64,000 bases of DNA from Oscillospiraceae bacterium (GTDB taxonomy: Bacteria; Bacillota; Clostridia; Oscillospirales; Acutalibacteraceae). The notes below the pieces were generated by a model. The model made no database searches and was not told where the DNA came from. It saw only the letters and a program-made list of their open reading frames with translations. Numbering within the stretch: position 1 is the stretch's first letter; each line of letters starts with the position of its first letter. Made by a program: the position numbers and the translations under genes. The stretch spans positions 33,724 to 97,723 of the forward strand of contig CACYHA010000011.1 in the NCBI GenBank assembly GCA_902774035.1, written 5' to 3'. Positions 13,706-52,099 of this stretch are shown here, piece by piece.

Positions 13706-14221
13706 ATGAAAAAAACCGTTGCACTTTTGAGCTGTCTGCTCATCCTTATCTCCTGCGTCGCCCTCACCGGCTGCGGAAAGCAGGATCTTACCAACAGCAA
13801 GTATCTCGGCACCTGGGTCGCGTCCAAGGCGACCATGTTGGGCGAAGAAGCGTCCGCAGATGAAGTCTTTTCGGACGGCTGGAGCATCAAGCTGAATCCG
13901 GACGGCACCGCCGTTGTGACGTCGAAGGATGAGGTTTCCAACTGCACATGGCGCGAAACAAGCAAGGGCATCAAGTTCAAGGGCGACATGAAAGTGAAAG
14001 CTACCGCAGAAGGCGACGAGCTGGTGATCAAGATTCTCGGGATGCAGATTCATTTTGTCAAGCTGACCCAAACGCAGGAGGCCGTCAGCTCACTCGGCGA
14101 CACCCTCGGCGGCATGGTTGACGACGCTGTCAGCAACGCAGACGAAGCGGTCGGCAGTGCAGTGAACAGCCTCAATGATGCCATCAGCGGCATCATCGGC
14201 GGCGCATCGGACGGAGAGTAA
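13706..14221 (+). CDS. Small lipoprotein of unknown function
   Basis: 171 residues with a lipoprotein signal: MKKTVALL, hydrophobic core, lipobox LTGC (Cys at ~23). The mature part holds a module (~33-115) with YLGTWVASKATM, LNPDGTAVVTS and GDELVIKIL, the pattern of small beta-rich lipocalin-like domains seen in many Firmicute lipoproteins, and an Ala/Ser-rich amphipathic tail (~120-171). ATG at 13706 after AGGAGG, 27 bases behind lysC, so it may share that transcript, though nothing links it to amino-acid synthesis. Confidence 0.8.
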   Translation: MKKTVALLSCLLILISCVALTGCGKQDLTNSKYLGTWVASKATMLGEEASADEVFSDGWSIKLNPDGTAVVTSKDEVSNCTWRETSKGIKFKGDMKVKATAEGDELVIKILGMQIHFVKLTQTQEAVSSLGDTLGGMVDDAVSNADEAVGSAVNSLNDAISGIIGGASDGE

Positions 14222-14404
14222 GTCGGCAGCCGTCAACATCCGAATTTGTCAATAGGAATCGCCCGCTGTGGATCACATTTCCACGGCGGGCGAATGCTAT
14301 TAGCTTCCGATTACCGCCTAATGCAGGCGGCCAATGGCTGCCCCTGCGGAATGAGAAAAGCAAAAAAGCTGCCCGCTGCCTGCTGGCTGCTGACAGCGAC
14401 CGAC
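14221..14404. repeat. Inverted heptamer-arm element D (~184 bp)
   Basis: Left arm 14221-14241 (units like AGTCGGC, AGCCGTC) and right arm 14375-14404 (units like GCTGCCT, GCTGGCT, GCTGACA) are inverted copies: 12 of 15 bases agree at the outer ends. The core of ~134 bases holds a 13-bp hairpin (14260-14272/14280-14292). The left arm begins at the last base of the preceding stop codon. No reading frame. Confidence 0.6.
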
Positions 14405-14411
14405 TGTTTCC

Positions 14412-14451
14412 AAAAAAACACCGCGCAGTACATGCTGCGCGGCGCTTTTTT
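14412..14451. terminator. Bidirectional terminator
   Basis: 8-bp perfect stem CCGCGCAG (14421-14428 with 14435-14442), A-run on the left (14412-14418) and T-run on the right (14445-14451). It serves the leftward TPM-domain gene that ends at 14459 and the rightward lipoprotein transcript. Confidence 0.8.
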
Positions 14452-14458
14452 GAGTTTT

Positions 14459-16861
14459 TCAGTTCGCGGGCTGGGTTGTCGGCTGCGCCGGAGCGGCGGC
14501 CGCGGGCGTCACACGGACGGCCTTGCAGGCCGGGCCGACCCAGGTGGTGTTGTTGTCGCGGGGATACACGGCTCTGACCTTGAAGAGATAGGTCGTGCCG
14601 TTTTTGAGCGAGCCGATCTCGGCCGAGGTGCCGTGCACCGTGGCGCACTGGAAGAAGGATTTGCCGCCGTCGCGCATACAGTAGACATAGTACTGGGTCG
14701 CGCCGGGAACGGCCTTCCAGGTGATCGTGGCTTTGCTGTCGGCCGGGGTCGCGGTCACGGCTTCGGGCGCGTTCGGAAGCACCTTCATCTTCAAAACCTT
14801 TGTGCCGTAGTAGAGGCCCTTGAAGGTCACGGTCACGGTATAAACGCCGACTTCCTTGCGGCCGGCCTGATAGGCGACGGTGTAGGCCTTGTTCTTTTTA
14901 AGGGTCTTGCCGTTGGCGTCTTTCACAATCACCTTCGGGGTGTGGGCCTTGCCGTCTGCGGTGTACTTTGCCTTGGAAAGGCTGACCTTGGCGATCTTTG
15001 CGATGGGATTGTTCACCCGCTTGCTGCAGACGGTGCAGGTGAAGATCTTGCTGCCGGCGGCCTTCATGGTCGCGGGGTTCAATTCGGTCTTCCATTTGTG
15101 ATCGATGGCCTTGGTGATCTTGTTTTTGTAGGTCTTGCCGCGGAAGGTCACGGTGGCGATGTAGGTGGTCTTGCCCTTGTTGCCGCAGGTGCCCTTGGTC
15201 TTGCTGACGATACCGCCGTTCTTGACCGTTGCGGTCACCTTTTTTGTCTTGGCGCCGTTTTTACCGACAAAGGTCGCGGTGGCGCTCTTCACGCCGTTCC
15301 ATGTCCAGGTCGGTTTCGCGTAGCTCGGCTGATCGTCCGTGCCGGAGGCGGGAACGGTGCGGCTGTCGGTGTAGGTCTTGCCCTGGAAGGTGACGGTCGC
15401 GGTGTAGACCACGTCGCCGTTGCTCTTCTGGCTGCGTTTGATCGTGCCCTCGTCGGCGCTGGCGGAAACGGAGATCTTGGCGCTGCCGTCGGTGCTGACA
15501 AAGGTGGCGCGGGCCAGCGATTCGTTTTCCCAGACCCAGGTCGGGGCGCGGAAGCCGTCTGCGGCCGGCTGTTCGCCGGCGGGAACGGTGCGGTTGTCGG
15601 TGTAGGTCCTGCCCTCAAAGGTGACGGTCGCGGTGTAGACCACGTCGCCGTTGGCCTTTGTGGTGCTGACGATCGTGCCTTCGGCCTTGCTGGCGGAAAC
15701 GGAGACCTTGGCGCTGCCGTCGGTGCTGACGAAGGTGGCGAGGGCGGATTCGTTGCTGTCCCAGTTCCAGGTCGGGGCGCCGAAGGACAGGCCGGAGGAG
15801 CCGCCGGTGTAGGTGTCGGTGTAGGTCTTGCCGCCGAAAGTGACGGTGGCCGTGTAGACGGTCTTGCCGCTCTCGTCGGTCTTTCCGGTGATCATGCCGT
15901 CCTCCGCCTTGGCGGTCACGGTCTGTGTGTCGGTGCCGTCGGTGCTGACGAAGGTGGCAACGGCCAGGTTCTCGCCGTTCCATTCCCAGGTCGGCTCGTT
16001 ATAGACGAAGGTCGGCGCCGGGGCGGGCACGGTGTAGGTGTCGGTGTAGGTCTTGCCGCCGAAGGAGACAGTGGCCGTATAGACCGTGTCGCCGTTTGCG
16101 TTCCTGGTTTCGGTGATGGTGCCCTCCTCCTTGGAGCAGGAGAGATTGGTCGTGGATTTGCCGTCGTTGGTCACGAAGGTGGCAACGGCGCGGTTCTCGC
16201 TCTCCCATTTCCAGGTGGGAACGACCTCGGCGGGCGTCGTCGGCGTTGTCGGGTCGGTCGCAGGTGCGGTCTTACTGGGATAGGGGTTGCTCTCGTCATA
16301 GGGCTTGCCGGTTTTCGCCTCGGTCATAAAGTCCTCTATAATCTGGACATAGCGGACGAAAGCATCATAGTATTTTTTGCTGTTCAACAAGGCAGTGAAT
16401 TCGTCCTCTTCAAGCACCTGAATGAAATAATCACTATTGAGAATCCAGCCGGAACCGCTGTCATATCCACTCCAGCCGGGTTCCGCCATGCTCAACAGAA
16501 GTAAAGAACCATCTTTTTCCTCACCATAGCCGAATCCGTTGTATTCGTAGTAATCCCATGCAAAGATATTCCGTTTGCGGCTGCCGGTGTTCTTTGCCGT
16601 AACGATGACAATGTCGAACTGCAGACGTTCGCTGGTCTCATCCAGCTTGTTCAGCAGCGCGGCCGCTTCTTCGGCGGTGAGCAGTTGGGCGTCGTCGGCA
16701 AATCTTGCCGCGCGGGTGGTGGCGGGCGTTGCCGGAATGGTCAGCGTGCCGATCTGCGTTTCCTTTTCGCCTTCGGCAAAAACGGTTGCGCCGCTCACGC
16801 ACACGGAGCAGACCATCAGCACTGCCAGCAGCACGGATAAGATGCTTTTCATGTGTTTCAT
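14459..16861 (-). CDS. Secreted TPM-domain protein with five repeats and an FN3 domain
   Basis: 800-residue exported protein. Signal peptide 1-~30; TPM (YgcG/TPM_phosphatase) domain at ~50-185 (ARFADDAQLLTAEEAAAL, FDIVIVTAKN); linker rich in Thr/Pro; five repeats of ~75 residues starting at ~215, 290, 363, 440 and 517, each with W-x-W-x(8)-A-T-F-V-x-(T/K)-(D/N)-G and ending Y-T-A-T-V-x-F-x-G-x-T-Y; then a CxxC-containing stretch (FTCTVCSKRV, ~608), a surface-type module, a fibronectin III domain (~697-785) and a Pro/Thr tail. The ATG at 16861 has AAAGGAG 8 bases before it. Probably cell-wall associated or secreted; its substrate is unknown. Confidence 0.85.
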   Translation of the reverse strand: MKHMKSILSVLLAVLMVCSVCVSGATVFAEGEKETQIGTLTIPATPATTRAARFADDAQLLTAEEAAALLNKLDETSERLQFDIVIVTAKNTGSRKRNIFAWDYYEYNGFGYGEEKDGSLLLLSMAEPGWSGYDSGSGWILNSDYFIQVLEEDEFTALLNSKKYYDAFVRYVQIIEDFMTEAKTGKPYDESNPYPSKTAPATDPTTPTTPAEVVPTWKWESENRAVATFVTNDGKSTTNLSCSKEEGTITETRNANGDTVYTATVSFGGKTYTDTYTVPAPAPTFVYNEPTWEWNGENLAVATFVSTDGTDTQTVTAKAEDGMITGKTDESGKTVYTATVTFGGKTYTDTYTGGSSGLSFGAPTWNWDSNESALATFVSTDGSAKVSVSASKAEGTIVSTTKANGDVVYTATVTFEGRTYTDNRTVPAGEQPAADGFRAPTWVWENESLARATFVSTDGSAKISVSASADEGTIKRSQKSNGDVVYTATVTFQGKTYTDSRTVPASGTDDQPSYAKPTWTWNGVKSATATFVGKNGAKTKKVTATVKNGGIVSKTKGTCGNKGKTTYIATVTFRGKTYKNKITKAIDHKWKTELNPATMKAAGSKIFTCTVCSKRVNNPIAKIAKVSLSKAKYTADGKAHTPKVIVKDANGKTLKKNKAYTVAYQAGRKEVGVYTVTVTFKGLYYGTKVLKMKVLPNAPEAVTATPADSKATITWKAVPGATQYYVYCMRDGGKSFFQCATVHGTSAEIGSLKNGTTYLFKVRAVYPRDNNTTWVGPACKAVRVTPAAAAPAQPTTQPAN

Positions 16862-16896
16862 GTTCAAAACTCCTTTGATGTCGATTTTTTGTTCAG

Positions 16897-16919
16897 GTAA
16901 TCAGAGATTACTTAGTAAT
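16897..16919. promoter_or_regulatory. Overlapping palindromes, possible operator
   Basis: GTAATC-AGA-GATTAC (16897-16911) and ATTACT-T-AGTAAT (16907-16919) overlap just downstream of the start expected from the minus-strand promoter at 16922-16950. A repressor bound there would block the TPM-domain gene. Confidence 0.45.
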
Positions 16920-16921
16920 TT

Positions 16922-16950
16922 ATTATAGCAAAGTTCCGGGCGGATGTCCA
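16922..16950 (-). promoter_or_regulatory. Promoter of the TPM-domain gene
   Basis: On the minus strand: -35 TGGACA (16945-16950), 17-base spacer, -10 TATAAT (16922-16927) with extended TGC. Confidence 0.7.
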
Positions 16951-17116
16951 GTAGCTTTGACAAAAGATTTTGCAAAAAGCGCGGTTGAATTCCATAAAAA
17001 TCGTCAAACGGGAGAGATGTTGTATAAAAAATGAACAACCCGCCGCGAAAAAACACGAAAAAGTAACAAAAATTCAATGATTTTTGAAAAAGGGTCTTTT
17101 CTTTTGCAGGGAGAAG

Positions 17117-17125
17117 TGCTATAAT
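17117..17125 (+). promoter_or_regulatory. Extended -10 promoter of murA
   Basis: TGCTATAAT at 17117-17125 without a good -35 box at the proper distance; the upstream region is A/T-rich. It lies ~90 bases before the murA start. Confidence 0.5.
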
Positions 17126-17214
17126 AATCAAGTATGAAAAGATGATTTCTGCCCTTACATAGATCGTTCCGCACCGTGCGGGCGCACACAAGAAAAAGAA
17201 AGAGGAGAGTTTTC

Positions 17215-18501
17215 TTGGAAAAGCTTGTGATCCACGGCGGCAACCGATTGACCGGCGAGGTGGAGATCAGCGGCGCAAAGAACGCCGCCGTCGCCATCAT
17301 TCCGGCCACACTGCTTGCGCAGGATGTCTGCCGCATTGAAAATATTCCGAATATCAGCGACGTTGTGACCATGGTGCGCATTTTGAGCAACATGGGCGCT
17401 GTCGTGCGCTATCTCAACAAACACACCATCGAGATCGACACCCGTCCCGTCAATTCCTACATCGTTCCTCACGAGATGACCAAAAAGCTGCGCGCGTCCT
17501 ATTATCTGATCGGCGCTTTGCTGGGCCGCTACAACCGCGCAAAGGTCTCGCTCCCGGGCGGCTGCAACTTCGGCGTGCGCCCGATCGACCTGCACATCAA
17601 GGGCTTTGAGCTGCTGGGCGCAACGGCGAATGTGGAAAATGCGATGATCGTCGCTTCCGCCGATCATCTGACGGGCGCTTCCGTCTATATGGACAAGGTC
17701 TCCGTCGGCGCAACGATCAACGTCATGCTGGCCGCCGTGAAGGCGCGCGGGCTGACGATCATTGAAAACGCCGCCAAGGAGCCGCACATTGTGGATCTCG
17801 CCAACTTCCTGAACGCCATGGGCGCGGATGTCCGCGGCGCGGGTACGGACGTGATCAAGATCCGCGGCGTGACCCATCTGCACGGCTGCGAGTATTCCAT
17901 CATTCCCGACCAGATCGAGGCCGGCACCTACATGGTCGCCGCCGCCGCCACAAAGGGCGACGTGCTGGTCAAAAACGTCATTCCGAAGCATCTGGAATCC
18001 ATCTCCGCAAAGCTGGTCGAATGCGGTGCGCAAGTGATCGAATATGACGACGCGGTGCGCGTGCGCTGCGACGGGCCGCTCAAGCGCTGCAACCTGAAGA
18101 CGATGCCGCATCCCGGCTTCCCGACGGATATGCAGCCGCAGATGAGCGTGATCCTTGCCATCGCCAACGGTACGTCGCTGGTGTCCGAGGGCGTTTGGGA
18201 CAACCGCTTCCGCTATGTGGATCAGCTCATTCGCATGGGCGCGAATGTCCAGGTGGACGGCACGATCGCCGTGTTCCAGGGCGTGGAAGAGCTCACGGGC
18301 GCTCCTGTGCGCGCCGACGATCTGCGCGCCGGCGCCGCCATGATCATTGCCGGTCTGGTGGCTCGCGGCACAACGGAGATCGAGGATATCATCTACATCG
18401 ACCGCGGCTACGAGGATTATGTGGAAAAGCTGCGCGACCTCGGTGCGGACATCTACCGCAAGGAGTTCCGCGACGACCACAACCAGCCGGCGGCGGGCTG
18501 A
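17215..18501 (+). CDS. murA: UDP-N-acetylglucosamine 1-carboxyvinyltransferase
   Basis: Transfers enolpyruvate from PEP to UDP-GlcNAc, the first committed step of peptidoglycan synthesis. 428 residues; the catalytic Cys117 stands in LPGGCNFGVRPIDLH, and NxxK at ~19-22 (SGAKNAA) and the Arg-rich loop are present. TTG at 17215 with AGGAGAG upstream is preferred to an in-frame start at 17176. Firmicutes often have two MurA copies; only one is here. The heptamer element 18505-18715 separates it from walJ. Confidence 0.94.
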   Translation: MEKLVIHGGNRLTGEVEISGAKNAAVAIIPATLLAQDVCRIENIPNISDVVTMVRILSNMGAVVRYLNKHTIEIDTRPVNSYIVPHEMTKKLRASYYLIGALLGRYNRAKVSLPGGCNFGVRPIDLHIKGFELLGATANVENAMIVASADHLTGASVYMDKVSVGATINVMLAAVKARGLTIIENAAKEPHIVDLANFLNAMGADVRGAGTDVIKIRGVTHLHGCEYSIIPDQIEAGTYMVAAAATKGDVLVKNVIPKHLESISAKLVECGAQVIEYDDAVRVRCDGPLKRCNLKTMPHPGFPTDMQPQMSVILAIANGTSLVSEGVWDNRFRYVDQLIRMGANVQVDGTIAVFQGVEELTGAPVRADDLRAGAAMIIAGLVARGTTEIEDIIYIDRGYEDYVEKLRDLGADIYRKEFRDDHNQPAAG

Positions 18502-18504
18502 TCT

Positions 18505-18715
18505 GAATGGAAAATTGAAAATGGAAAATTGAAAATGAATCATAGATCATGACGATTCGGGTTTCAAGGTCGCGGGAAAGACGAAAACGGCGTTCCTGCG
18601 ATTTTTTCTGCCGGAAAAATCCGTCAAAGCAATCGCTGCGCCCTTCTGTGAATTCAGCCTTTTCAGCTTTCCGTTTTCAACTTTCAATTTTCAATTTTCA
18701 ATTTTCAATTTCATA
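18505..18715. repeat. Inverted heptamer-arm element A (~205 bp)
   Basis: Left arm 18505-18539, five 7-base units alternating AAATTGA and AAATGGA; right arm 18674-18708, five units TTTTCAA/CTTTCAA, the reverse complement of the left, with one degenerate unit to 18715. The core is 134 bases (18540-18673), not coding. The left arm begins three bases after the murA stop. The right edge shares 22 identical bases (18670-18691) with the reverse complement of the left edge of element B. Confidence 0.75.
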
Positions 18716-18733
18716 CATCCTGGGGGTGATTTT

Positions 18734-19528
18734 TTGGCAAGGTTCTGTTCGCTGTTTTCGTCGTCTTCGGGCAACGCGACCTATGTGGGTACAGCGACCG
18801 ACGGCATTCTGATCGACGCGGGCGTGAGCGCAAAGCGGCTAAAAAACGCCCTGCTGCAGCGGGAGATCGACCCGGCAAGCATCCGCGCCGTCTTTGTGAC
18901 CCACGAGCACAGCGACCACATCAGCGGCCTGCGCGTCTTCGCTTCGTCGCTGCACATTCCGGTCTATGCCACCCGGGGGACGCTCGTCGGGCTGGAGGAG
19001 GCCGGGGCGCTCAGCGAAAAATATCCCGTGTTTGAACTTCCCGCCGGAAGCGACGCCGCCGTGGGCGACATGAACGTCCACGCCTTTGCAACGCCCCACG
19101 ACAGTCTGGAGAGCTGCGGCTTCACGGTCACCTTCGGCGACGAGCGCAAGCTCGCGGTCTGCACCGACATCGGCCATATGACCAACGAGATCATGCGCAA
19201 CCTCCTCGGCTGCGACCTCGTGATGCTGGAATCCAACCACGACGTCGGGATGCTCGAGAACGGACCCTATCCCTATTTTCTCAAGCGGCGCATCCTTTCC
19301 GACCGGGGCCACCTTTCCAACGCCGCCTGCGCCGACGTTGCCGCCCAGTTGGTGGAGCACGGCACGACCCGCCTCTTCCTCGGCCATTTGAGCGCCGAAA
19401 ACAACCTGCCCGAGCTGGCTTTCCAGACGAGCTACTGCGCCCTTTGCGAATGCGGCGCCGTGGCTGACCGGGACTACATCCTCAAGGTCAACCCCAGAGA
19501 GAACAACGACGACGTTGTGAGGTTCTGA
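18734..19528 (+). CDS. walJ: MBL-fold metallohydrolase (WalJ/YycJ type)
   Basis: 264 residues of the metallo-beta-lactamase fold. The zinc motif HEHSDHISG (~57-65) is complete, and further ligands lie in DIGHM (~137) and FLGHLSAENN (~216). FCSLFSSSSGNATYVG at the N-terminus is typical of YycJ/WalJ, a partner of the WalRK cell-wall regulatory operon with proposed exonuclease activity. TTG at 18734 follows GGGGGTGAT. Together with rlmH one base later it keeps a gene pair common in Firmicutes; walR and walK are not in the window. Confidence 0.88.
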   Translation: MARFCSLFSSSSGNATYVGTATDGILIDAGVSAKRLKNALLQREIDPASIRAVFVTHEHSDHISGLRVFASSLHIPVYATRGTLVGLEEAGALSEKYPVFELPAGSDAAVGDMNVHAFATPHDSLESCGFTVTFGDERKLAVCTDIGHMTNEIMRNLLGCDLVMLESNHDVGMLENGPYPYFLKRRILSDRGHLSNAACADVAAQLVEHGTTRLFLGHLSAENNLPELAFQTSYCALCECGAVADRDYILKVNPRENNDDVVRF

Positions 19529-19529
19529 A

Positions 19530-20012: not shown

Positions 20013-20017
20013 CGAGT

Positions 20018-20097
20018 ACCCGCCGATTCACTCGATGTGTAAAGATGGACGAGCAAATTTGCCGTCGGGATTTGCGCGTCTGAGTGGACCGGCGGGT
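20018..20097. other. Rod-like hairpin behind rlmH
   Basis: Four nested helices: 8 bp (20018-20025/20090-20097), 5 bp (20029-20033/20082-20086), 4 bp (20048-20051/20077-20080) and 6 bp (20053-20058/20070-20075), with symmetric internal loops. There is no T-run directly behind it. It may be a 3' stabilising structure or part of a small RNA; no function is evident. Confidence 0.5.
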
Positions 20098-20110
20098 GTG
20101 TTTCACGCCG

Positions 20111-20147
20111 CAAAAAAACCGCCCTGTTCGAACAGAACAGGACGGCT
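20111..20147 (-). terminator. Terminator of the CotH-small protein operon
   Basis: 11-bp stem with one mismatch (20119-20129 with 20135-20145) and a 7-base T-run on the minus strand (20112-20118), 18 bases after the stop of the small gene. Confidence 0.8.
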
Positions 20148-20164
20148 TTCATGTTGTGTGCTTA

Positions 20165-26840: not shown

Positions 26841-26841
26841 C

Positions 26842-27848: not shown

Positions 27849-27853
27849 TTTAT

Positions 27854-27881
27854 CTAACGTCTAATGTCTAACATCTAACGT
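27854..27881. repeat. Heptanucleotide tandem array, four units
   Basis: CTAACGT, CTAATGT, CTAACAT, CTAACGT in register, ending exactly at the stop codon of the leftward SCP2-like gene. Confidence 0.65.
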
Positions 27882-28685
27882 CTATTTTGCCAGCTCACCG
27901 ATCAGCAGCAGGAAGTTGCCGAGCTGGGCGCCGAATTCCGGACCGCCGTCCATGATCAGCTTGCCGCTCTTGACGGATTCCAGCATGTCGGCCGTGCCGA
28001 GCAGGATGCCCAGAGCGCTGTCGAAGGAATCGAAGCGCAGGGTGAAGAACGGCATGGCGCGTTTGTATTCACCGCGGCCGGCACGGGATTTGCCGGCTTT
28101 GATGCGGATGTAGGCCGCGACCTCGGGGTGGTCGTTCACCGCAAGCGCATAAACGCGGTCGGGAGATTTGCTCGTCCAGTCGTGGATCTCGGGGTGTCCC
28201 ATCTTGTTGAGCTGGCTGATGCCGCTCGTGAGCAGATAGAACATGCACTTGACCATGAGCTGTTTGTCTTCCTCCGCCTCGGGGGCTTCCGTTGCGCCGA
28301 GGACGTTCGCCATCTTGAGCAGCGTCATCACAAAGGCGGCGAGGGTGCCGGCGTGCTTGATGCCGCGGATCTTCGGGATCGCGTCCAGGGTGATGTTGCC
28401 CTTGAAGAAGGCGTTCAGTTTTTCCACGCTCTTGAACTCCAGCTCGATGTGGGGCTCCGGCGTCAGGCAGGGGTTGACGATCCATTCGCCGCTGTTGACG
28501 ATGAAATGCATACCGACCTTGCCCTCGGGCACTTCCGGGTTCAGGCAGCTCACCTGAATGACGGCGTGGGCGTGTGCAAACTTTTTGGAAAGGGAGGGGA
28601 CCTCCGTTGCGAGCACCTTAACAAGAGGAAGCGCGGCGTTTAAGAAAATTTTGTTGGAATATAATTCTTCTTGTGCAATCGCCAT
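27882..28685 (-). CDS. SCP2-like lipid-binding protein
   Basis: 267 residues, cytoplasmic, distantly similar to the product of 31904-32665 at the start of the same operon. Two halves can be seen: ~40-125 with the SCP2/sterol-transfer pattern (GMHFIVNSGEWIV, PHIELEFKSVEKLNAFFKGNITL) and ~170-265 with a second beta-rich half (VYALAVNDHPEVAAYIRIKAGK, FDSFDSALGILLGTADM). The second of these patterns is the D-x(4)-L-G-I-L-L-G segment that closes the hydrophobic pocket in SCP2 domains. Probably carries or presents a lipid substrate for the operon's enzymes; no catalytic residues are seen. ATG at 28685. Confidence 0.7.
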   Translation of the reverse strand: MAIAQEELYSNKIFLNAALPLVKVLATEVPSLSKKFAHAHAVIQVSCLNPEVPEGKVGMHFIVNSGEWIVNPCLTPEPHIELEFKSVEKLNAFFKGNITLDAIPKIRGIKHAGTLAAFVMTLLKMANVLGATEAPEAEEDKQLMVKCMFYLLTSGISQLNKMGHPEIHDWTSKSPDRVYALAVNDHPEVAAYIRIKAGKSRAGRGEYKRAMPFFTLRFDSFDSALGILLGTADMLESVKSGKLIMDGGPEFGAQLGNFLLLIGELAK

Positions 28686-43513: not shown

Positions 43514-44465
43514 GTTCCACACCGTTCTGCAGCGCCTGCAGAACGCCGAGGATGTGCTCATCCTTACCCACGCGAACCCCGACGGCGACACCCTCGGCGG
43601 CGGCTTCGCCCTGTTTTGGGGGCTGAAAAAGCTGGGGAAGCGGGTCAAACTGCTGAACAACGAGCCGATCTCGGAAAAATACCGTTTTCTTGCCCGGGGG
43701 CTGGAAAACGACGCATTTGAAGAAAATTACATCATCACCGTGGACGTGGCGGACAAGAGTCTGCTCGGCGCGGCGCTGGAGGAAAGCTACGGCGACCGGG
43801 TGGATCTTTCCATCGACCACCACGGCACGAACCGCCTTTACGCGAAGGAGACCTATGTGGAGAGCGACTCCGCCTCCGCCAGCGAGATCATCTATCTGCT
43901 GCTGCTGTCTCTCGGCGTGGAGTTCACCGGGGAGCTGGCCGACTGCCTTTACACCGGTGTTTCCACCGACACCGGGTGCTTCCGCTATTCCAATGTAACG
44001 CCCCGCACCCATCGCATCGCCGCCGACCTGATGGAGCGCGGCGCGAACCACACCGCCATCGACGTCGCTATGTTCGAAACCAAGGACATGAGCTTTTTGC
44101 GCCTGCAGCAAAAATGTCTGGAGGCGCTGGAGCTTTATTATGACGGCCGCGTCAGCGTGCTGAACATCACCCGCGCCCTGCTGGACGAGACCGGCTGCAA
44201 AGACGAGGACTGCGACGCCATCGTCGCGCTCTCGCGCCAGATCGCCGGCGTGTGGAACGGCACGTACAAAGATGGAACGCTCTCGATCCGCGAGAACGAC
44301 GGATGCGTATTCGAGGTTACAGAAGTTCGAATGCTCAAAGGAAGAAGCGCTGGCGCAAATGCTTCCGGTGCTGAAAGAAGCGCTGACTTGACGTGTGAAA
44401 CACGTCAAGTATTTCGGAATTTGGAATTCGGAATTCGGAATTGCGGGACGCCACGCTGCGCGTGA
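43500..44465 (+). CDS. nrnA: DHH-family oligoribonuclease/pAp phosphatase, damaged 3' end
   Basis: NrnA degrades short RNAs and 3'-phosphoadenosine 5'-phosphate. The N-terminal DHH domain is intact: HANPDGDTLGG (~20-30), VDVADKS (~82), DHHGTN (106-111) and YTGVSTDTGCFRYSN (~155). The C-terminal DHHA1 domain is not: the GGGGH motif is missing after RQIAGV (~246), and the expected end (CSKEEALAQMLPVLKE...) is found at 44326-44391 in another frame, with its own TGA at 44389-44391. A deletion plus frameshift therefore removed most of DHHA1; the open frame now runs on to 44465 through the left arm of heptamer element C. Probably inactive, unless this is an assembly error. ATG at 43500. Confidence 0.85.
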   Translation: MKMIEFHTVLQRLQNAEDVLILTHANPDGDTLGGGFALFWGLKKLGKRVKLLNNEPISEKYRFLARGLENDAFEENYIITVDVADKSLLGAALEESYGDRVDLSIDHHGTNRLYAKETYVESDSASASEIIYLLLLSLGVEFTGELADCLYTGVSTDTGCFRYSNVTPRTHRIAADLMERGANHTAIDVAMFETKDMSFLRLQQKCLEALELYYDGRVSVLNITRALLDETGCKDEDCDAIVALSRQIAGVWNGTYKDGTLSIRENDGCVFEVTEVRMLKGRSAGANASGAERSADLTCETRQVFRNLEFGIRNCGTPRCA

Positions 44466-44608
44466 TGCGTCTAAGCTATGTGAGGAAGAAGCTATTACAT
44501 CATCGACGAGCCGGAAGACTTAAGAGGCTTTTCTCTGCGAAAAAAGAGTTCGGTGAAAACGCAATGTAAAATCGCGACCACAATTCCGAATTTCCAATTC
44601 CGAATTAC
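44416..44608. repeat. Inverted heptamer-arm element C (193 bp)
   Basis: Left arm 44416-44443, four units GGAATTY/G; right arm 44581-44608, four units of the reverse complement. The two 28-base arms match at 24 positions. The core is 137 bases, non-coding. The first arm lies inside the extended reading frame of the damaged nrnA; the second stands just before truB. Confidence 0.75.
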
Positions 44609-45523: not shown

Positions 45524-45586
45524 TTTAACTTTCCATTTTCCATTTTCCATTTTCAATTTTTCATTCGATTCCCGACTACCGACTCA
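45524..45586. repeat. Heptanucleotide tandem array, nine units of two families
   Basis: Nine 7-base units in unbroken register between truB and ribF: a block of TTCCATT-type units that changes into CGACTAC-type units. Only one arm is present. Confidence 0.7.
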
Positions 45587-45601: not shown

Positions 45602-46519
45602 ATGAAACAATCCGTTCTGGCTCTCGGAAATTTTGACGGCCTGCACCGCGGCCATCTGGCGGTGCTGCAAACGGCGCTGCAGAGCGCGGCCGCGCAAACA
45701 AAGCGCCCGGCCGTGCTGCTGTTTGACTGCCACCCTCGCGAAGTGCTCACCGGGGTCTGTCCGCCGGTGCTGCTGGCGGAAGAAGAAAAGCGCCGCAGGC
45801 TCGCTTTGCTCGGGTTTGCGGTCGAAATCATTTCGTTTGCGCAGGTGCGCGACCTTTCCCCCGCGGCGTTTCTCGATTTGCTGGAAGCGCGGTTTTCCCC
45901 GGTTTGCCTGTGCTGCGGCAACAACTACCGTTTCGGCGCGAAGGCCGCCGGCACGGTGGAGACCCTGCGAACGCTCAGCGCGCAGCGCGGCATCGAAGTG
46001 CAGGTGGCGCCCGACGTGATGTTCGACGGTGCGCCCGTGTCGTCCACACGCATCCGCGTTCTGCTAGAAGCGGGGGAAATCACGGCGGCGAACCAGATGC
46101 TCGGCCGGCCGTTTTCCTACGCCTTTCCTGTGGTGGACGGCGACAAGCGCGGCCGCTTGCTCGGCTTTCCGACAGCCAACCAGCGGTTTCCGCAAGGCTT
46201 CGTGCGGCTGCGGCGCGGCGTTTATGCCGCAAAGGTCTGCTTAAGGGACACGTGGTATCCTGCAGTTACGAACATCGGCGTGCGCCCGACGATCGGTACG
46301 CCCGACCTGCGCAGCGAAACCTGCGTTCTCGGCTTTGACGGCGACCTGTACGGCCAAATACTGGAAGTGCATCTGCTGGAATATCTGCGGCCGGAGGAAG
46401 ATTTCGGCGCGCTGGACGCGCTGCGAACGCAGATCGCTGCCGACGCCGAAGCGGCAAAGGACGTTTTTGAAAGGACAAGCCATGAAACAAAAGCTGAAGG
46501 TCAAAGCTGTCTTTTTTGA
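45602..46519 (+). CDS. ribF: Bifunctional riboflavin kinase/FMN adenylyltransferase
   Basis: 305 residues making FMN and FAD. N-terminal adenylyltransferase: LGNFDGLHRGHLAVL (~8-22), CCGNNYRFGAKAAG (~100), PVSSTRIRVLLEAG (~145); C-terminal kinase: GRLLGFPTANQRFP (~182), YPAVTNIGVRPTIG (~215). It supplies flavin cofactors, for example for the oxidoreductase at 33161. ATG at 45602 after CAGGTG. Confidence 0.95.
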   Translation: MKQSVLALGNFDGLHRGHLAVLQTALQSAAAQTKRPAVLLFDCHPREVLTGVCPPVLLAEEEKRRRLALLGFAVEIISFAQVRDLSPAAFLDLLEARFSPVCLCCGNNYRFGAKAAGTVETLRTLSAQRGIEVQVAPDVMFDGAPVSSTRIRVLLEAGEITAANQMLGRPFSYAFPVVDGDKRGRLLGFPTANQRFPQGFVRLRRGVYAAKVCLRDTWYPAVTNIGVRPTIGTPDLRSETCVLGFDGDLYGQILEVHLLEYLRPEEDFGALDALRTQIAADAEAAKDVFERTSHETKAEGQSCLF

Positions 46520-47165
46520 TTTTGACGACACACTGCAAAGCAGAAAGGGCGCTTACCGTCTGTACTGCGAAGCATTTTTATCGAAGTATTTCCCCGGGCT
46601 CGGCGCAGCCGAACGCGATCGCAAACTCGACGAGATGGAAGCGCTGGTGGACGGGGGCTACAAGGACCGAGAGGTCTATTTTCCCGAGCTGATCGACCTC
46701 TGGCAGTGGAAGGATCACCCGCCGCTGCAGGAGCTCTATGACTCGTTCAATCTCGATTTCGGCAAATACATCGTGCTGCTGCCCGGCGCGGTGGAAACGC
46801 TGAAAGAACTCAAACGGCGGGGTTTTTTGCTCGGCGCGGTGACGAACGGCGTCTCCTCGCTGCAAAACATCAAGCTGGACACCGCCGGGATCCGTGATCT
46901 GTTCGACGTGGTCGTCGTTTCCGGCGACATCGGCGTCTACAAGCCCGACCGCCGCATTTTTGACGAGGCCGCCCGCCGTATCGGCGTCCGGAACAGCGAC
47001 GTTCTTTTCGTCGGCGACCACCCGGTCAACGACATCGACGGCGCACTGGGCGCCGGGATGCAGGCCATCCGCATGAACTACGGCGATTTCAAGGGCAGGG
47101 GACTCGGCAAGGCCACCGCGGCGGAGATCGAACAGATTTCGGACGTGCTGGCGTATGTTTCATAA
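46482..47165 (+). CDS. HAD-superfamily hydrolase
   Basis: 227-residue phosphatase of the YjjG/pyrimidine 5'-nucleotidase-like group. Motif I FFDFDDTLQ with the nucleophile Asp and acid/base Asp (~11-19), motif II VTNGVSS (~117), motif III Lys in YKPDRRIFD (~148), motif IV GDHPVNDIDGA (~178). Starts inside the end of ribF (38-base overlap) after AAGGACAAGCC. Probably a housecleaning nucleotidase; a flavin phosphate substrate is possible from the position. Confidence 0.87.
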   Translation: MKQKLKVKAVFFDFDDTLQSRKGAYRLYCEAFLSKYFPGLGAAERDRKLDEMEALVDGGYKDREVYFPELIDLWQWKDHPPLQELYDSFNLDFGKYIVLLPGAVETLKELKRRGFLLGAVTNGVSSLQNIKLDTAGIRDLFDVVVVSGDIGVYKPDRRIFDEAARRIGVRNSDVLFVGDHPVNDIDGALGAGMQAIRMNYGDFKGRGLGKATAAEIEQISDVLAYVS

Positions 47166-47191
47166 ATTAAAGATAAGGATCGTGAAAACTC

Positions 47192-49132
47192 ATGTTTTGT
47201 AAGCATTGCGGACACAAACTGACGGACGGCGCAGCGGTTTGCCCCGGCTGCGGCACCCGGATCGACCCCGCTGTTTTCAGCGTGCAGAAATTCAAGGTGA
47301 CCCTGCCCTCCCGCGAACAGGAGCTGCAGACCCTGCTGGAACAGGTGGACGCCAAAAAAGCGGAGGCTGCCCCGGCGACCGAGGTGATCGATCTGCCCGA
47401 GGAAGTGCTCGAGCTTTCGCCCGACGTGCCGGAGGACGCGCCGCCGACAGTCGTGGAGCTGCCGGAAGAGGACGACGCGCTGCTGCGCCAGCCCATGATC
47501 TCCGACGGCAGAACCCCGACGCCCCGTTTGGACATCTCCGTGCCTGCCGATTTGCCGCTCCTGCGCCCTCGCGAAAGCGCCGCGTCGCGCCGCAGCCGCC
47601 ATGTGCTCACCGCGATCGTGTGCGTGTGCGCTGTGGCGATGCTTGCTCTGCTGGGCGTGCGGCTGACCACCCATCTTTTCGACAGCAGCAACAGCGGGCT
47701 GGAACCGGTCTCGCTGAACGTGCTGACCGACGAGGAAAAGCAGGAGGTGCTCTCGGCGCTTTTGCCCTATGCGCCGCTGTTTGACCGCCCGTTCACGCCG
47801 ACAACCATGGGCGTGGGCGCATTTTTCCGCGCGCTGGATCTGAACAAAACGAACAACCTCTATGCCGCTGCGAACGGCCAGCCGACCCGGGTGACCGAAA
47901 CGGCGGACCCGCTCAGCCGCTTTGTCGGTGAAGAGGGCGGCTACAGCTATTACCGCATCCCGGCAAAGGAGCTGGACGCTCTGGCCGCGCGCTTCGGCGT
48001 TTCTCTGCCCGGCAGCGGCAACAACAGCAGCTACTATTACTACGACGGCGCATATTACTTTTTCGCCGCCGACGAACCTGCCGGAGATCCGGCGCCCGAT
48101 CTGCATGTTTCCAAGGCGCAGAACACCGAAGACGGCAACTGTTATGTTGTTTTGGCAGACCTGAGCGACATCAACGTGGTCTACGCCATCGTCAGCCGCG
48201 GCACGGACGCCGCGCAGGCGGCCGACTGGACGGTGCTGGAGCTTTCGCCCGACCCGCTGTTCCGGGAGGACGGCAGCCGCCTTGCCGTGCAAAGTGACGC
48301 TTTGCCCTATGAAATGCGCCACACGGAGATCCCGGCGACCGCGTCCGACGGAACGGTCTATGCCAAATATGTGCTGGATTATCCCTATTTCACCGATACG
48401 GCGACCGAGACCGCCAAAACGGTCAACGCCCTGTATGCCCAGATGCTCAATTCCTACAGGGAGCTTTCGCAAAGCGCCGACAAGCGCTTTCAGGCCTTTG
48501 TCAAACGCGGCTACGACACGCGGATGCTGCCTGGCTACACTTACATGGTATCCACCGTGACTTTCAATCGGGACGGTACGCTTTCCCTGCTGGATGAGCT
48601 GACGGAATACCAGGCCGAGGCGGCCGCAAAAGCGCTCAAGGCGCAGCAGGCGGAGTCTTCCGCCGAGGAGGAGGGCGAAGAACCGCTTGCCCCCAACCGC
48701 TTTGTGATGCCGACCATCACCTATTCCGGCACCACCATCGACACCGGCACCGGCGCCTTCCTGCGCCGCGACGATCTGTTCAGCGGCGACTTTGCGTGGT
48801 ATCAGACTCTGCTGTACCATGTGTTCGCCGGCGCGAGCGAGGCCGACCTCGACGCGCTCATCAGCGGCGCAACGGCGCAGACCGAAACGACCGGCTGGGA
48901 AGAAGAAACAACGGCCGATCCCTACGCGCCTACTGCGGCGGAGGATGTGACGGCAGCGACCGATTCGGCGGCCGCCGGATTGCCGGCGCTCAGCGACGCC
49001 CAGGCCGCCGTCGGCCAGCAGATCTACGCTTCCCCCTGGGTGCGCACCGAAGAAGGCGTGTGCTTCTGCTACCTCGGCAACGGTTACTACTCCTATGTGA
49101 CCCTGCCGGAGAAGTATGTGGAGGCGGAATAA
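47192..49132 (+). CDS. Zinc-ribbon membrane protein of unknown function
   Basis: 646 residues. An N-terminal zinc ribbon (CKHCG at ~3-7, CPGCG at ~17-21), an acidic Pro/Glu-rich linker (~50-130), one membrane helix (~135-157, LTAIVCVCAVAMLALLGV), and a large extracytoplasmic part. The latter has two regions with YxYY-rich stretches (SSYYYYDGAYYFFAADEP, ~283) and pairs of AKYVLDYPYF/YVLADLSD-type strands, plus an Ala/Thr-rich stretch near the C-terminus (~565-610). Such zinc-ribbon/one-TM proteins are common in Clostridia and of unknown role; the position before mreB suggests envelope function. Confidence 0.75.
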   Translation: MFCKHCGHKLTDGAAVCPGCGTRIDPAVFSVQKFKVTLPSREQELQTLLEQVDAKKAEAAPATEVIDLPEEVLELSPDVPEDAPPTVVELPEEDDALLRQPMISDGRTPTPRLDISVPADLPLLRPRESAASRRSRHVLTAIVCVCAVAMLALLGVRLTTHLFDSSNSGLEPVSLNVLTDEEKQEVLSALLPYAPLFDRPFTPTTMGVGAFFRALDLNKTNNLYAAANGQPTRVTETADPLSRFVGEEGGYSYYRIPAKELDALAARFGVSLPGSGNNSSYYYYDGAYYFFAADEPAGDPAPDLHVSKAQNTEDGNCYVVLADLSDINVVYAIVSRGTDAAQAADWTVLELSPDPLFREDGSRLAVQSDALPYEMRHTEIPATASDGTVYAKYVLDYPYFTDTATETAKTVNALYAQMLNSYRELSQSADKRFQAFVKRGYDTRMLPGYTYMVSTVTFNRDGTLSLLDELTEYQAEAAAKALKAQQAESSAEEEGEEPLAPNRFVMPTITYSGTTIDTGTGAFLRRDDLFSGDFAWYQTLLYHVFAGASEADLDALISGATAQTETTGWEEETTADPYAPTAAEDVTAATDSAAAGLPALSDAQAAVGQQIYASPWVRTEEGVCFCYLGNGYYSYVTLPEKYVEAE

Positions 49133-49185
49133 AAATGCGGCGCAGCCGCTGCCAAGGCGGCTTTCTCCGCTGGCGGGGAAGGCGG

Positions 49186-49234
49186 CATCGCGCAGCGAAA
49201 GCAGCGGCAAAATGCTGTCTTTGCCTGCGCGATG
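49186..49234. other. Long intergenic hairpin
   Basis: 10-bp perfect stem CATCGCGCAG (49186-49195 with 49225-49234) with an inner near-perfect 8-bp helix. No T-run. It lies in the gap between the zinc-ribbon gene and mreB, together with a shorter GCCGC/GCGGC hairpin before it; the region has the look of a REP-like palindrome. Confidence 0.5.
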
Positions 49235-49264
49235 ACGGAGGAGGCGGCCTGTAAGTTGGCAATC

Positions 49265-49308
49265 TGTCGGAAGCGCGTATGACTTTTGTCGGAAGCGCGT
49301 ATGACTTT
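49265..49308. repeat. 22-bp exact tandem repeat upstream of mreB
   Basis: Two identical adjacent copies (49265-49286 and 49287-49308), containing CGGAAGCGCGTATGAC, end 4 bases before the -35 box of the mreB promoter. Two helical turns per copy place both on the same face of the DNA. A paired site for an activator is plausible. Confidence 0.8.
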
Positions 49309-49312
49309 CTTC

Positions 49313-49341
49313 TTGCATCTTTCCCCAAAACGCGCTATAAT
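49313..49341 (+). promoter_or_regulatory. Promoter of the mreBCD operon
   Basis: -35 TTGCAT (49313-49318), 17-base spacer, -10 TATAAT (49336-49341). Confidence 0.8.
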
Positions 49342-49399
49342 AAAATATCAACCATAGAACCATAGTTTCATCCGCTGAAACGCGGCAAGGAGAACCGTT

Positions 49400-50410
49400 A
49401 TGTTATTTTCACAAGACATCGCCATCGACCTCGGCACCGCCAACACCCTTGTGTTCGTCAAGGGAAAGGGCATCGTCATACGCGAGCCCTCCGTGGCGGC
49501 CGTGAGCGTCAGCACCAAACCGGCCAAGGTGGTCGCTGTGGGCAACCAGGCCAAGGAGATGATCGGCCGCACCCCCGGCTCCATCACCGCCATGCGGCCC
49601 CTGCGCGACGGCGTGATCGCCGATTTCGACATCACGGCGGAGATGCTGCGCAAGTTTATCCAGAAAGCGATGGGCGCCTCGTTTTTCGCCAAGGCGCGCG
49701 TGGTCATCTGCGTTCCCTCCGGCGTGACGGAGGTGGAGCGCCGCAACGTGCATGACGTTGCGCTGGAGGCCGGCGCGAAGTTCGTCAGCCTGATCGAAGA
49801 GCCCATGGCGGCCGCCATCGGCGCGGGTCTGCCCGTGAGCGAGGCCATCGGCTCCATGGTCGTGGACATCGGCGGCGGCACGGCGGAGGTGGCTGTGATC
49901 GCCCTGGGCGATATCGTGACCTCCCGTTCCGTGCGCGTGGCCGGCGACAATCTGGACGCCGCCATCGTGCAGTATCTCAAGAAAAAATACAACCTGCTGG
50001 TGGGCGAACGCACCGCCGAGGAGATCAAGATCAAGATCGGTTCCGCCGCGCCCTATGAAGGCGAGGGCAAGATGGAGGTCAAGGGCCGCAATCTGCTGGA
50101 CGGTCTGCCGAAAAGCGTGACCGTCACCAGCGAGGAAGTCCGCGAAGCGCTGGACGACCCCGTGAACCAGATCCTCGATGCGATCAAGGCCACGCTGGAA
50201 AAGACGCCGCCGGAGCTTTCCGCCGACATCATCGACCACGGCATCACCTTGACGGGCGGCGGCGCACTGCTGCGCGGACTGGACAAGCGCATTGCCGACG
50301 AGACCGGGATGCCCGTTGTCGTTGCCGACGCGCCGCTGGACTGTGTGGCCGACGGTGCGGGCATCTATCTGGAATCCGACGCGCTGACAAACGTCGGAAA
50401 GCGCGTGTGA
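49400..50410 (+). CDS. mreB: Rod-shape actin MreB
   Basis: 336-residue actin homologue that forms membrane-bound filaments and guides lateral wall synthesis. ATPase motifs: [16 protein letters not shown] (~9-24, phosphate 1), [12 protein letters not shown] (~157, phosphate 2) and [11 protein letters not shown] (~286, adenosine). The N-terminus begins with the membrane-binding [13 protein letters not shown] at 49400 with AAGGAG. First gene of the cell-shape operon. Confidence 0.96.
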
Positions 50411-50447
50411 GTTTGCATTTTTTCATCCGTTCACAAGGAGTTTTCTT

Positions 50448-51305
50448 ATGCGTAGATTCATCAAGAGCACCCAAGTGAAAATCTTTTTGTTCGTGTTTGC
50501 GGCGTTGCTGGTCGGCATCGTGCTGGCTGCCGTGGGTCATACGGATTCCGCCCCGCTGAGCAAGGCGGTGTCCGTGGTGTTCACACCGCTGCAGAAGGTC
50601 AGCGGCGCGATCAGCGAAAAAGTGCGCTGGTTTTCCTCCTCCTTCGCTTCGGCAAGCGCCCTGAAAAGCGAAAACGACGAGCTGCGGGCAAAGCTCGCGG
50701 ACTATGAGAACCAACTGATCGATTACGGCGAGACCCGGCGCAAGCTGCGCTCCTATGAAAAGGCGCTGGGCGTGAAGAAGGAGCACAGCGATTTCACCCT
50801 GATCCCCGCCAATGTGATCGGCACCGACAAGGCCGACCTGTTCTCTTCGCTGGTGCTGGACAAGGGCACGGGCGACGACGTTGCGCTGGGCGACCCGGTG
50901 ATCTCCGGGAACCATCTGGTCGGCATCGTCAAAAAGGTCAACCCCTCCGACTGCGTGGTGCACACGCTGCTGAATCCGACGGTGAACGTCGGCGCGCTGG
51001 AAAGCAAGACCCGGGAGGGCGGCTTTGTCACCACCGACGCCCACCAGAGCGAGAGCGGCAAGTGTATGCTGCGGGGGCTGGAACGCTCCACGCAGGTCAT
51101 GCCCGGGGCGCTGGTGGTCACCTCCGGCGTGGGCGGCCTGTACCCGAAGGGGCTGCTGATCGGCACGGTTTTGCAAATTCTGGAAAGCGACGTGGATCTG
51201 ACCGCCTATGCGGTGCTGGAGCCCGCCGTGGATTATGACGCGCTGGAAGACGTTTTCGTCATCACCGATTTCAAGGGCCAGGGCGTGGAACAACCATCTG
51301 ACTGA
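50448..51305 (+). CDS. mreC: Rod-shape protein MreC
   Basis: 285 residues: one membrane helix (~12-30), a coiled coil (~60-108, SENDELRAKLADYENQLIDYG), and the beta-barrel domain (VIGTDKADLFSSLVLDKGTGDDV, GNHLVGIVKKVNPSDCVV). It scaffolds the elongasome outside the membrane. ATG at 50448 after AAGGAG; mreD follows 8 bases after the stop. Confidence 0.94.
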   Translation: MRRFIKSTQVKIFLFVFAALLVGIVLAAVGHTDSAPLSKAVSVVFTPLQKVSGAISEKVRWFSSSFASASALKSENDELRAKLADYENQLIDYGETRRKLRSYEKALGVKKEHSDFTLIPANVIGTDKADLFSSLVLDKGTGDDVALGDPVISGNHLVGIVKKVNPSDCVVHTLLNPTVNVGALESKTREGGFVTTDAHQSESGKCMLRGLERSTQVMPGALVVTSGVGGLYPKGLLIGTVLQILESDVDLTAYAVLEPAVDYDALEDVFVITDFKGQGVEQPSD

Positions 51306-51313
51306 GGAAGATC

Positions 51314-51850
51314 ATGAAACGCTTTACCTTTGACCGACAACTTGCGGCGCGGCGGGCAATGTTTGCATTGCTCCTGGTGCTTGCTGCCCTTTTGCAGCAC
51401 ACCCGCGGCGTTTTGCCGGCCATCGGCAGGGCGGATTGCTTTTTGCTGCTGCCGCTGTGTGTGGCGATCGCCATGCATGAGGGCAGCGTGGTCGCCATGC
51501 TGTTCGGCGCGTTCGGCGGCGCTCTCTGGGATTTTGCCGCCCCCTCCGGCGACGGTTTTTATGCGGCGGCGCTGTGTCTGCTCTGCTTTGTGTGCGGGGC
51601 GCTTTGCTCTTTCCTGCTGCGGGTGAATCTGCGCTCGTTTTTGCTGCTGTGCGCCCTCGGCGGTGTGCTGCTGGCGCTGGCGCACTGGTTCTTCTTCCTG
51701 CGTTTGACGGGCATCGACCCTGCCGGCGCGCTGCTGACGGGCCGGGAACTGCCGTCGCTGCTCTATACGCTGGCCGTGTCGCCGGTGTGCTACGGGGCGG
51801 TGAAGGCGGTCTGCAGGAAAAGGAAGCATACGTTGACGGTTGACAGGTAA
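51314..51850 (+). CDS. mreD: Rod-shape protein MreD
   Basis: 178-residue hydrophobic protein with about five membrane helices (ARRAMFALLLVLAALLQ, LLPLCVAIAMHEGSVVAMLFGAFGG, LLCFVCGALC, LLLALAHWFFFL). The motif EGSVVAMLFGAFGGALWDF matches the MreD core (GxxxGxxxD-type). Low sequence conservation is usual; identity follows from position between mreC and mrdA. Confidence 0.88.
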   Translation: MKRFTFDRQLAARRAMFALLLVLAALLQHTRGVLPAIGRADCFLLLPLCVAIAMHEGSVVAMLFGAFGGALWDFAAPSGDGFYAAALCLLCFVCGALCSFLLRVNLRSFLLLCALGGVLLALAHWFFFLRLTGIDPAGALLTGRELPSLLYTLAVSPVCYGAVKAVCRKRKHTLTVDR

Positions 51851-51865
51851 GATACGATCCGCAGA

Positions 51866-52099
51866 AGAAAGAATTGAAAGTTGAAAACGGAAAATCGAAA
51901 ATGAAGGGTCGCCGCCCGATGCGGAAAAAGTGCGCTCATACAATCGACGAACACTGCAATCAACAGGGTTCTGTCTTCGCGGACTGAATGTGCAAATCAA
52001 CGGCCTTTGACCCCGCGACCTAAATTGCGCATTGCAAAATGATTTCAATTTTCAATTCTCAATTTTCAATTCTCCCTCCTGTTCTTTCCATTCCCAATT
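51866..52099. repeat. Inverted heptamer-arm element B (~234 bp)
   Basis: Left arm 51866-51906, about five units (GTTGAAA, ATCGAAA and related); right arm 52044-52099, eight units in unbroken register (TTCAATT, CTCAATT, then degenerate). The first four right units are the reverse complement of the left. Core ~137 bases, bounded by GGGTCGC (51906-51912) and CGCGACC (52014-52020), which form an inverted repeat. Non-coding; inserted between mreD and mrdA. Confidence 0.72.

Follow-up and report, generated by a model that had tools for sequence, protein, structure and literature searches.

Heptanucleotide repeats are familiar from cyanobacteria, where they are termed short tandemly repeated repetitive (STRR) sequences. 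Rehm et al. 2015 (PMC4692102) interpreted the GGGAATC arrays of Xanthomonas and the GGGGA(C/T)T arrays of Nostoc as G-quadruplex sequences; the Xanthomonas arrays have mostly four units, are intergenic, lie on the sense strand near stop codons and antisense upstream of genes, and form 70 and 75 convergent inverted pairs in two genomes, only a few heptamer pairs are given for Nostoc, and three heptanucleotides in Calothrix are mentioned. Intergenic heptamer arrays of direct TAACTGA repeats were described in Beggiatoaceae and others (MacGregor 2015, PMC4679880), and the parS heptads of pSM19035 are bound by the ribbon-helix-helix protein Omega, four or more being needed for full activity (PMC9499535). 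Short palindromic elements include repetitive extragenic palindrome (REP) doublets forming hairpins (REPINs) and bacterial interspersed mosaic elements (BIMEs), with REP-associated tyrosine transposases (RAYTs) (Bertels and Rainey 2011, PMC3116915; GTAG/CGTC REPs, PMC3733652), as well as BrickBuilt, a miniature inverted-repeat transposable element (MITE) of Porphyromonas gingivalis with 19 intergenic copies in one strain and small inverted-repeat ends (PMC4596501). Here we describe a family of intergenic elements in an Oscillospiraceae bacterium (assembly GCA_902774035.1), seen in a 64,000-nucleotide stretch of contig CACYHA010000011.1 (positions 33,724 to 97,723), hereafter the window. Its copies have homologous cores between two inverted arms of heptamer units, the arms are usually matched within a copy, join the core in one register and have a characteristic length, the hairpins of the core covary, and most of the outgroup junctions read are free of the element.

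A sequence-only reading of the window had proposed that four places follow one plan, in which two inverted heptamer arrays enclose a core of constant size. The parts of these places are the following:

44416 to 44442, plus strand: left arm, AATTCGG-type heptamer array (sequence reading and tandem-repeat listing)
44444 to 44580, minus strand: conserved core, family models R1/R2 (E 9.6e-17; member of the seed alignment)
44581 to 44606, minus strand: right arm, inverted AATTCGG-type array (sequence reading and tandem-repeat listing)
51872 to 51902, plus strand: left arm, AATTGAA-type array (sequence reading and tandem-repeat listing)
51905 to 52021, minus strand: conserved core (E 3.6e-15; member of the seed alignment)
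52043 to 52071, minus strand: right arm, inverted AATTGAA-type array separated from the core by 21 bases
18506 to 18537, plus strand: left arm, AATTGAA/AATGGAA array, 4 bases past a predicted gene end
18567 to 18616, plus strand: possible degenerate left part of a core (GGTCGCGGGAAAG; weak match, 5.0 bits, E 0.72)
18675 to 18711, minus strand: right arm, inverted AATTGAA array
14222 to 14236, plus strand: weak left array following a stop codon, with some two heptamer units (seen by eye and short of the array threshold)
14368 to 14392, minus strand: right array of 3.6 units (GCTGCCT), with no family core

Array pairs were thus found at 44416-44608, 51866-52099 and 18505-18715, and the fourth place, 14221-14404, proved weak and coreless. 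Homologous cores are present at 44444-44580 and 51905-52021, both of which are in the training set of a sequence-only core model as well as in the seed alignment; 18567-18616 holds a weak trace, and 14221-14404 had no match to the sequence-only core model. The size of the core is constant only roughly: where a fetched place holds a single copy, the model match is between 106 and 192 bases long. The same reading had taken inverted heptamer pairs to be undescribed, which the Xanthomonas pairs of Rehm et al. contradict.

The family was traced with models R1 and R2, of which R1 was built from seven aligned cores that share 23 invariant columns; the seed motifs had been found by eye in the window cores, a further copy of this genome and a sister-species junction, and all E-values of core matches are rough. 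R1 gave 19 matches at E<=0.05 in this genome, on many contigs but at 17 places, two of the matches being secondary ones that adjoin or overlap another. Within the genus, 21 of 34 genomes (this one included) had a match, the best E being below 1e-5 in 12, and several of the remaining genomes had one or two weak matches that may be due to chance. The number of matches reached 53 in G027, 46 in G024, 31 in G007, 26 in G019 and 21 in G018. Across the family, with stricter filters, R1 was found in 3 of 300 genomes: the present one, its congener G027, and G045, which belongs to a different genus. In a pattern scan for the core nearly all of the matches listed look like chance, in GC-rich genomes. 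No match to 44416-44608 was found in either the phage or the plasmid collection, and the window had no Rfam 15 match at the gathering score.

From one end to the other a copy consists of an arm, GNGGTCGCGG, a variable part, TCCGCGA, a variable part, CGTCGATT, a variable part, a second hairpin (GGCGC ... GGCGCCCC) and the inverted arm, with a hairpin near each end of the core and a short inner inverted motif, RAGGKCGCS, which by eye is common to the copies. Across 52 sequences, paired cells made up 92.2% of the two hairpins, as compared with 87.1 +/- 0.5 in shuffled alignments, with a covariation score of 0.156 versus 0.082 (0/500 shuffles) and 44 cells changed on both sides versus 13.3 +/- 3.6; the pair columns 206/268 hold G-C in 21 and A-U in 16 sequences. 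The alignment had been fitted to R1, a model in which the left hairpin and the inner part of the right one were already present, and its cells count sequences and not events. Folded as single-stranded DNA, 44410-44608 reached -37.7 kcal/mol versus -23.4 +/- 2.9 (z -4.90, 0/200), and one G024 copy folded as RNA gave a z of -6.82 (two copies were folded in all). By eye, nested or adjoining copies occur at L115, L118 and L140. At L004 15703-15894 two left core halves stand head to head, each with an arm of a different unit.

For the study of the arms 83 copies were available. Six that are nested or overlapping were left out of the local-alignment and in-register tests (77 copies used), and 11 were left out of the analyses of unit distance, core-identity rank and arm length (72 used). 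Copies of the congeners were mostly the better-scoring ones, with 20 regions for the 46 matches of G024 and 8 for the 21 of G018, plus one further locus each. By inspection the arms, whose units follow the pattern ARWKNNN, join the core in a single register. Among 95 arms of score >=10 lying <=4 nt from the core, 44 were 32 nt long, which corresponds to 4.5 heptamers and is the commonest length; 12 measured 33 nt, 7 measured 25, 6 measured 27, 4 measured 39 and 3 measured 18. A recognised array on both sides was present in 38/72 copies, the other 34 missing one or both.

That units differ between copies and agree between the arms of one copy, as the sequence-only reading had maintained, was supported: the units of the two arms were within one mismatch in 33/38 copies, and the summed unit distance was 25 as compared with 45.3 +/- 4.1, a value as low being reached by 0/20,000 within-species shuffles. 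The five disagreeing copies are L097, L135 and L168 (distance 3) and L101 and L117 (distance 2). Local alignment of the arms of 77 copies gave a mean of 16.69 versus 14.94 +/- 0.51 (1/10,000 within-species shuffles of right arms), the within-copy mean being higher than the between-copy mean in 8/12 species, and in 41/77 copies the arms were >=60% identical in register, the others being without an arm, having lost one, or differing. In this genome nine two-armed copies carry several unit types, and seven of them agree within one mismatch. It is conceivable that the arms are protein-binding arrays like the Omega parS heptads, whose likeness is kept by selection for one specificity, and the Omega heptads, which are contiguous, direct or inverted, and needed in a number of at least four (PMC9499535), do resemble arms of mostly 4.5 units. 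As copies of one core within one genome bear several units, this explanation would need several binding specificities per genome, and we consider it quite unlikely.

Arrays were counted in 442,928 sampled bases of this genome at score >=14 and in 476,651 bases at score >=10. The claim that period-7 arrays exceed chance held: at score >=14 there were 34 arrays of period 7 and 19 of its harmonic, period 14, versus 0 at periods 3-6 and 8, with 8 at period 9, 8 at period 18 and 9 at period 21, and a block-shuffled control (one shuffle) had 0 arrays at periods 6-9. Genome-wide, the unit pattern TTTTCAATTTTCAATT was met 86+78 times with <=2 mismatches versus 0+0 for a control read backwards, and at one mismatch 54+56 times versus 0-6 times on each strand in 20 congener genomes. 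Period 7 was also prominent in stretches of G018, G024, G019 and G001 and in stretches of G023 that were chosen for their arrays, and no period-7 arrays of score >=13 were found in 60 kb of G021 or 40 kb of G008. AATTCGG arrays occurred in 2/391 genomes of the class, this one and G601.

Most of the arrays lie outside predicted genes and point into the gap. Of 48 arrays (score >=10), 3 were within predicted genes and 45 outside, in a sample that is 87.3% predicted coding; these placement figures are approximate, as the genes were predicted with a home-made script. The nearest neighbour of the 45 extragenic arrays was a gene 3' end in 31 cases and a 5' end in 14, and 16 arrays touched or overlapped a gene end, always a 3' end. 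With the sense of an array called from its purine content, 40/45 ran inward, the purine-rich strand leading from the gene edge to the gap, and two of the five that did not (L004, window 43076) were ambiguous by inspection. Neighbouring arrays <=600 bases apart in this genome were convergent in 7 cases, divergent in 1 and tandem in 3, and pairs other than the core copies had spacings from 16 to several hundred bases. Tandem repeats do arise by strand slippage and some arm lengths step by 7, so that simple microsatellites paired by chance might be considered. Nevertheless, period 7 stands out, 40/45 arrays run inward, and the arms agree around a conserved core; such an origin is almost certainly wrong.

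Single junctions were compared among congener species: sisters carry other units at the same junction, and most of the outgroups read carry nothing. At 44416-44608 the element was absent from 10/13 congener loci, G024 has a composite, and 2 loci were unreadable; at 51866-52099 it was absent from 9/13, G018 and G024 have other arrays plus the left end of the core, and 2 were unreadable. At 18502 the armed stem of two sister species is shorter, has a GTGGAAT-type unit and is followed by a T run, and by inspection 22 other congener loci have array-free gaps of about 60 to 140 bases. At 12440 the sisters have the full element with AATTCGG-type arms, and this genome has one short ATCTAAC-type array. 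A junction shared by G001 and G009, whose flanks are 94-96% identical, holds copies (L167/L168) with the same left arm type and a core identity of 0.89, the right arm being of AATTCGG type in one and of AATGAAA type in the other. At several junctions two or more species have a copy, in some cases with opposite core orientation.

When copies of two species are compared, core identity averages 0.66-0.71, too low to resolve the deep relations among copies. That a shared junction proves common ancestry was tried and rejected by ranking core identity at shared junctions among all comparisons of a species pair. For G000 and G024 the ranks were 50, 157, 21 and 84 of 270; for G000 they were 12/15 with G001, 8/15 with G009, 21/45 with G015, 55/90 with G019 and 39/135 with G018; and for G024 they were 4/18 with G001 and 21/108 with G019. 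Distant copies at one junction we take to be separate insertions, or too diverged to tell. Those of the close pair G024 and G018, with ranks of 5, 8, 1, 3 and 10 of 162, look inherited.

The position of arrays at gene ends also bears on the idea that they are RNA-level 3' elements, that is, termination stems or stems protecting mRNA ends, spread by selection and not by transposition. It is in keeping with the 31/45 arrays nearest to a 3' end, with the 16 touching or overlapping one, and with 18502, where sisters have an armed stem and T run and outgroups, by eye, a plain terminator. On the other hand, a 5' end is the nearest neighbour in 14/45 cases, copying is needed to place a homologous core, in either orientation, at junctions that are unrelated, and in the order of a Dokdonella genome, which we take to be the Xanthomonadales, one pair lies inside a UvrD-like gene, which leaves this idea very unlikely.

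The explanation that we favor, tentatively and at somewhat less than even confidence, is that the copies are a small non-autonomous mobile element of palindromic plan, similar to a MITE or REPIN, with concerted change of the units in its arms. The two arms, inverted and each of about 4.5 ARWKNNN heptamers, would pair into one long stem around a core of about 106-192 bases, and arms and core would move jointly through an enzyme acting in trans. Copies would settle mostly in intergenic DNA, either close to the 3' end of a gene or ahead of the following one, and some would land next to or within an older copy. Within a hairpin or cruciform, the arms may then pair out of register by multiples of 7, and mutual repair of such slipped arms may spread a unit variant along and across both arms, bringing the units of a copy towards a single word with period and approximate length preserved. 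A common word without a common order, the lengths that in some cases step by 7, and changes confined to one arm would all be accounted for by slipped pairing.

Several observations weigh against the proposed mobile element, among them the limits of the hairpin alignment given above. The order of unit variants is only slightly shared across arms, with an identity of 0.819 versus 0.802 when permuted (94/20,000) in 35 copies with variable units in both arms, a set that includes some arms that are partly not arrays. The arms therefore have a common word but, except in L152, the one exact mirror copy, are not exact copies of each other, and mixed-arm copies occur as well (L097, L135 and L168); the earlier proposal that one arm templates the other is not supported by these data. 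The within-copy mean of arm alignment was lower than the between-copy mean in 4/12 species (G015, G012, G001 and G009, with 2-3 copies each), and same-junction copies from sister species were counted separately. In a sample of G018, G024, G001 and G019, where arrays of several types stand side by side, neighbours were convergent in 4 cases, divergent in 2 and tandem in 11 (9 '--', 2 '++'). The sequence-only core model gave 10 core matches versus the 48 arrays in the same 476,651 bases; therefore, the majority of the arrays here do not serve as arms to this core. A target-site duplication was not established, the element-free junctions being too diverged to place the cut. No transposase could be tied to the element, as Y1_Tnp occurs in 21/34 genomes with no evident link to copy number, and ten loci fetched for their RAYT-like genes, which are our own reading of weak Y1_Tnp matches, gave no R2 match at E<=1.

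Y1_Tnp/RAYT was accordingly not supported as the mobilizing enzyme, on the lack of an evident copy-number link and of an R2 match in those ten loci. Such genes of about 150-180 aa were seen in congeners at L349-L356, L359 and L360. A GTAGGGGCGG-type palindrome noticed by eye near arrays (L049, L133) may, we presume, be the REP of RAYT-like genes, separate from the core family.

Unit distance and core identity within species were only weakly linked for left arms (r -0.159, 95/3,000) and not linked for right arms (r -0.018, 1,235/3,000). This too counts against the mobile element with concerted arms, since such weak coupling also fits cores entering ready-made arm pairs. The heptamer palindromes would then have come first, the core would be a second element inserting at their center, and the arms would match because the target was palindromic. 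In addition to unit types nearly uncoupled from core similarity, it is consistent with the convergent pairs without this core at L017 16779-16844 and L014 10504-10572, with further coreless pairs at L426 and L430 of G601 (by eye) and in Xanthomonadales, and with either orientation of the core at the same junction in different species. However, the arm length peaks at 32 nt with one register to the core, and among six pairs of copies with a core identity >=0.84 the left unit was identical in 5 and the right unit differed by at most one mismatch in 4, the units of both arms being the same in two. Furthermore, no coreless palindrome of the same unit was seen in a sister species at the junctions read. 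We regard insertion of the core into older palindromes as a serious contender, if a somewhat unlikely one.

It is also possible, though unlikely, that no end sequence of the element is inherited as such and that both ends are made anew from one heptamer seed, which would give each copy its own terminal word, in an architecture common to a rumen clostridial genus, another order of the class and the Xanthomonadales. Slipped hairpin copying, or a polymerase templating in the manner of telomere repeats, might do the rebuilding.

Beyond the four places, single arrays also occur in the window:

45530 to 45560, minus strand: single AATGGAA-type array in a short intergenic gap
27853 to 27884, minus strand: single array (TCTAACG) at a predicted gene 3' end

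Another heptamer array (CTGTTCACTGCCCA, found at period 14 of 7) lies in the intergenic gap at window 60253-60303 without a core match. Elsewhere, at L016 4306-4750, an AATTGAA array and, after it, about 70 bases with a terminator-like hairpin are present twice, about 340 bases apart, the two stretches of about 70 bases being 95.7% identical. AGTAGTC arrays flank a small reading frame in G014 (L188 11559-12426) and recur further on, with no R2 match, and in G018 and G024 (L049 11530-11811, L053 18804-19012, L046 13969-14343) GTTAGCT and CAGGGAA arrays adjoin terminator-like hairpins, differing types being adjacent. The window also holds long tandem repeats of 231 and 225 bases at 15347-16216, inside the predicted minus-strand gene 14459-16861, whose product is perhaps a repeated-domain protein, and a perfect 22-base tandem duplication between predicted genes at 49265-49308.

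Similar layouts were met outside the genus. GGGAATC arrays were found in 40/250 genomes of the order of the Dokdonella genome, and at 50 loci of that order neighbors <=300 bases apart were convergent in 28 cases, divergent in 1 and tandem in 5; all of these loci had been found by the published unit, 20 were hand-chosen, partly for matches on both strands, and some overlap, and the counts are therefore a description and not a rate. The pair inside a UvrD-like gene noted above is a convergent GGGAATC pair at L421 305-399, which interrupts the helicase gene. In G601, from another order of the class, AATTCGG palindromes were seen by eye without this core, the best R2 match having an E of 0.063.

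What is new here is the conserved core, the copy-specific but matched units and the turnover of units at one junction; inverted heptamer pairs themselves are known. In open-licence PubMed Central papers, no description was found of a conserved core flanked by heptamer arms whose units are specific to each copy. The family offers a natural system in which two repeat ends change in concert, and conversion between arms can be measured copy by copy across sister species. If it is true that the arms are rebuilt at each copying, this would be a new route for a mobile element to make its ends, and we know of no record of one that does so.

The element can be set beside each of the systems named at the outset. 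It is like REPINs in its short, non-autonomous, palindromic and extragenic plan, with inverted ends, a spacer and a predicted hairpin as the unit, and unlike them in that the REPIN family is defined by repeated ends, whereas here the core is conserved and the ends vary. GTAG/CGTC tags are not at the core ends, where by eye there is GNGG and a hairpin, the CGTC of the core being mid-core, and no RAYT-like gene was found beside a copy. Like a MITE it is short, repeated and dispersed within one genome, but its terminal inverted repeats match within a copy and differ between copies. With BrickBuilt (PMC4596501) it shares intergenic copies, inverted-repeat ends and tandem repeats as part of the element; in BrickBuilt a 23-nt repeat forms the inside, while here the repeats are the inverted ends and the unit varies by copy. 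The TAACTGA arrays differ in being direct, with one inverted case in the genome studied, mostly upstream of start codons and without a core. The parS heptads are likewise contiguous 7-bp repeats, direct or inverted, but belong to a plasmid centromere/operator with one consensus unit, in contrast to the dispersed repeat described here. The closest likeness in array form is to the GGGAATC arrays of Xanthomonas, with heptamer arrays of about four units, placement at gene ends and, here, 40/45 arrays running inward; a conserved core and copy-specific matched units are not described for GGGAATC in the parts of that paper considered. Some units of the present arrays do have runs of three G (CAGGGAA arrays without this core, and the right arm of L097), but the AATTGAA, AATTCGG and AGATGTT units, unlike the G-rich GGGAATC, have none, and units such as AATTGAA cannot form G-quadruplexes. 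A like layout with A+T-rich units argues that the heptamers of Xanthomonas are a palindromic element rather than sequences with a general G-quadruplex role.

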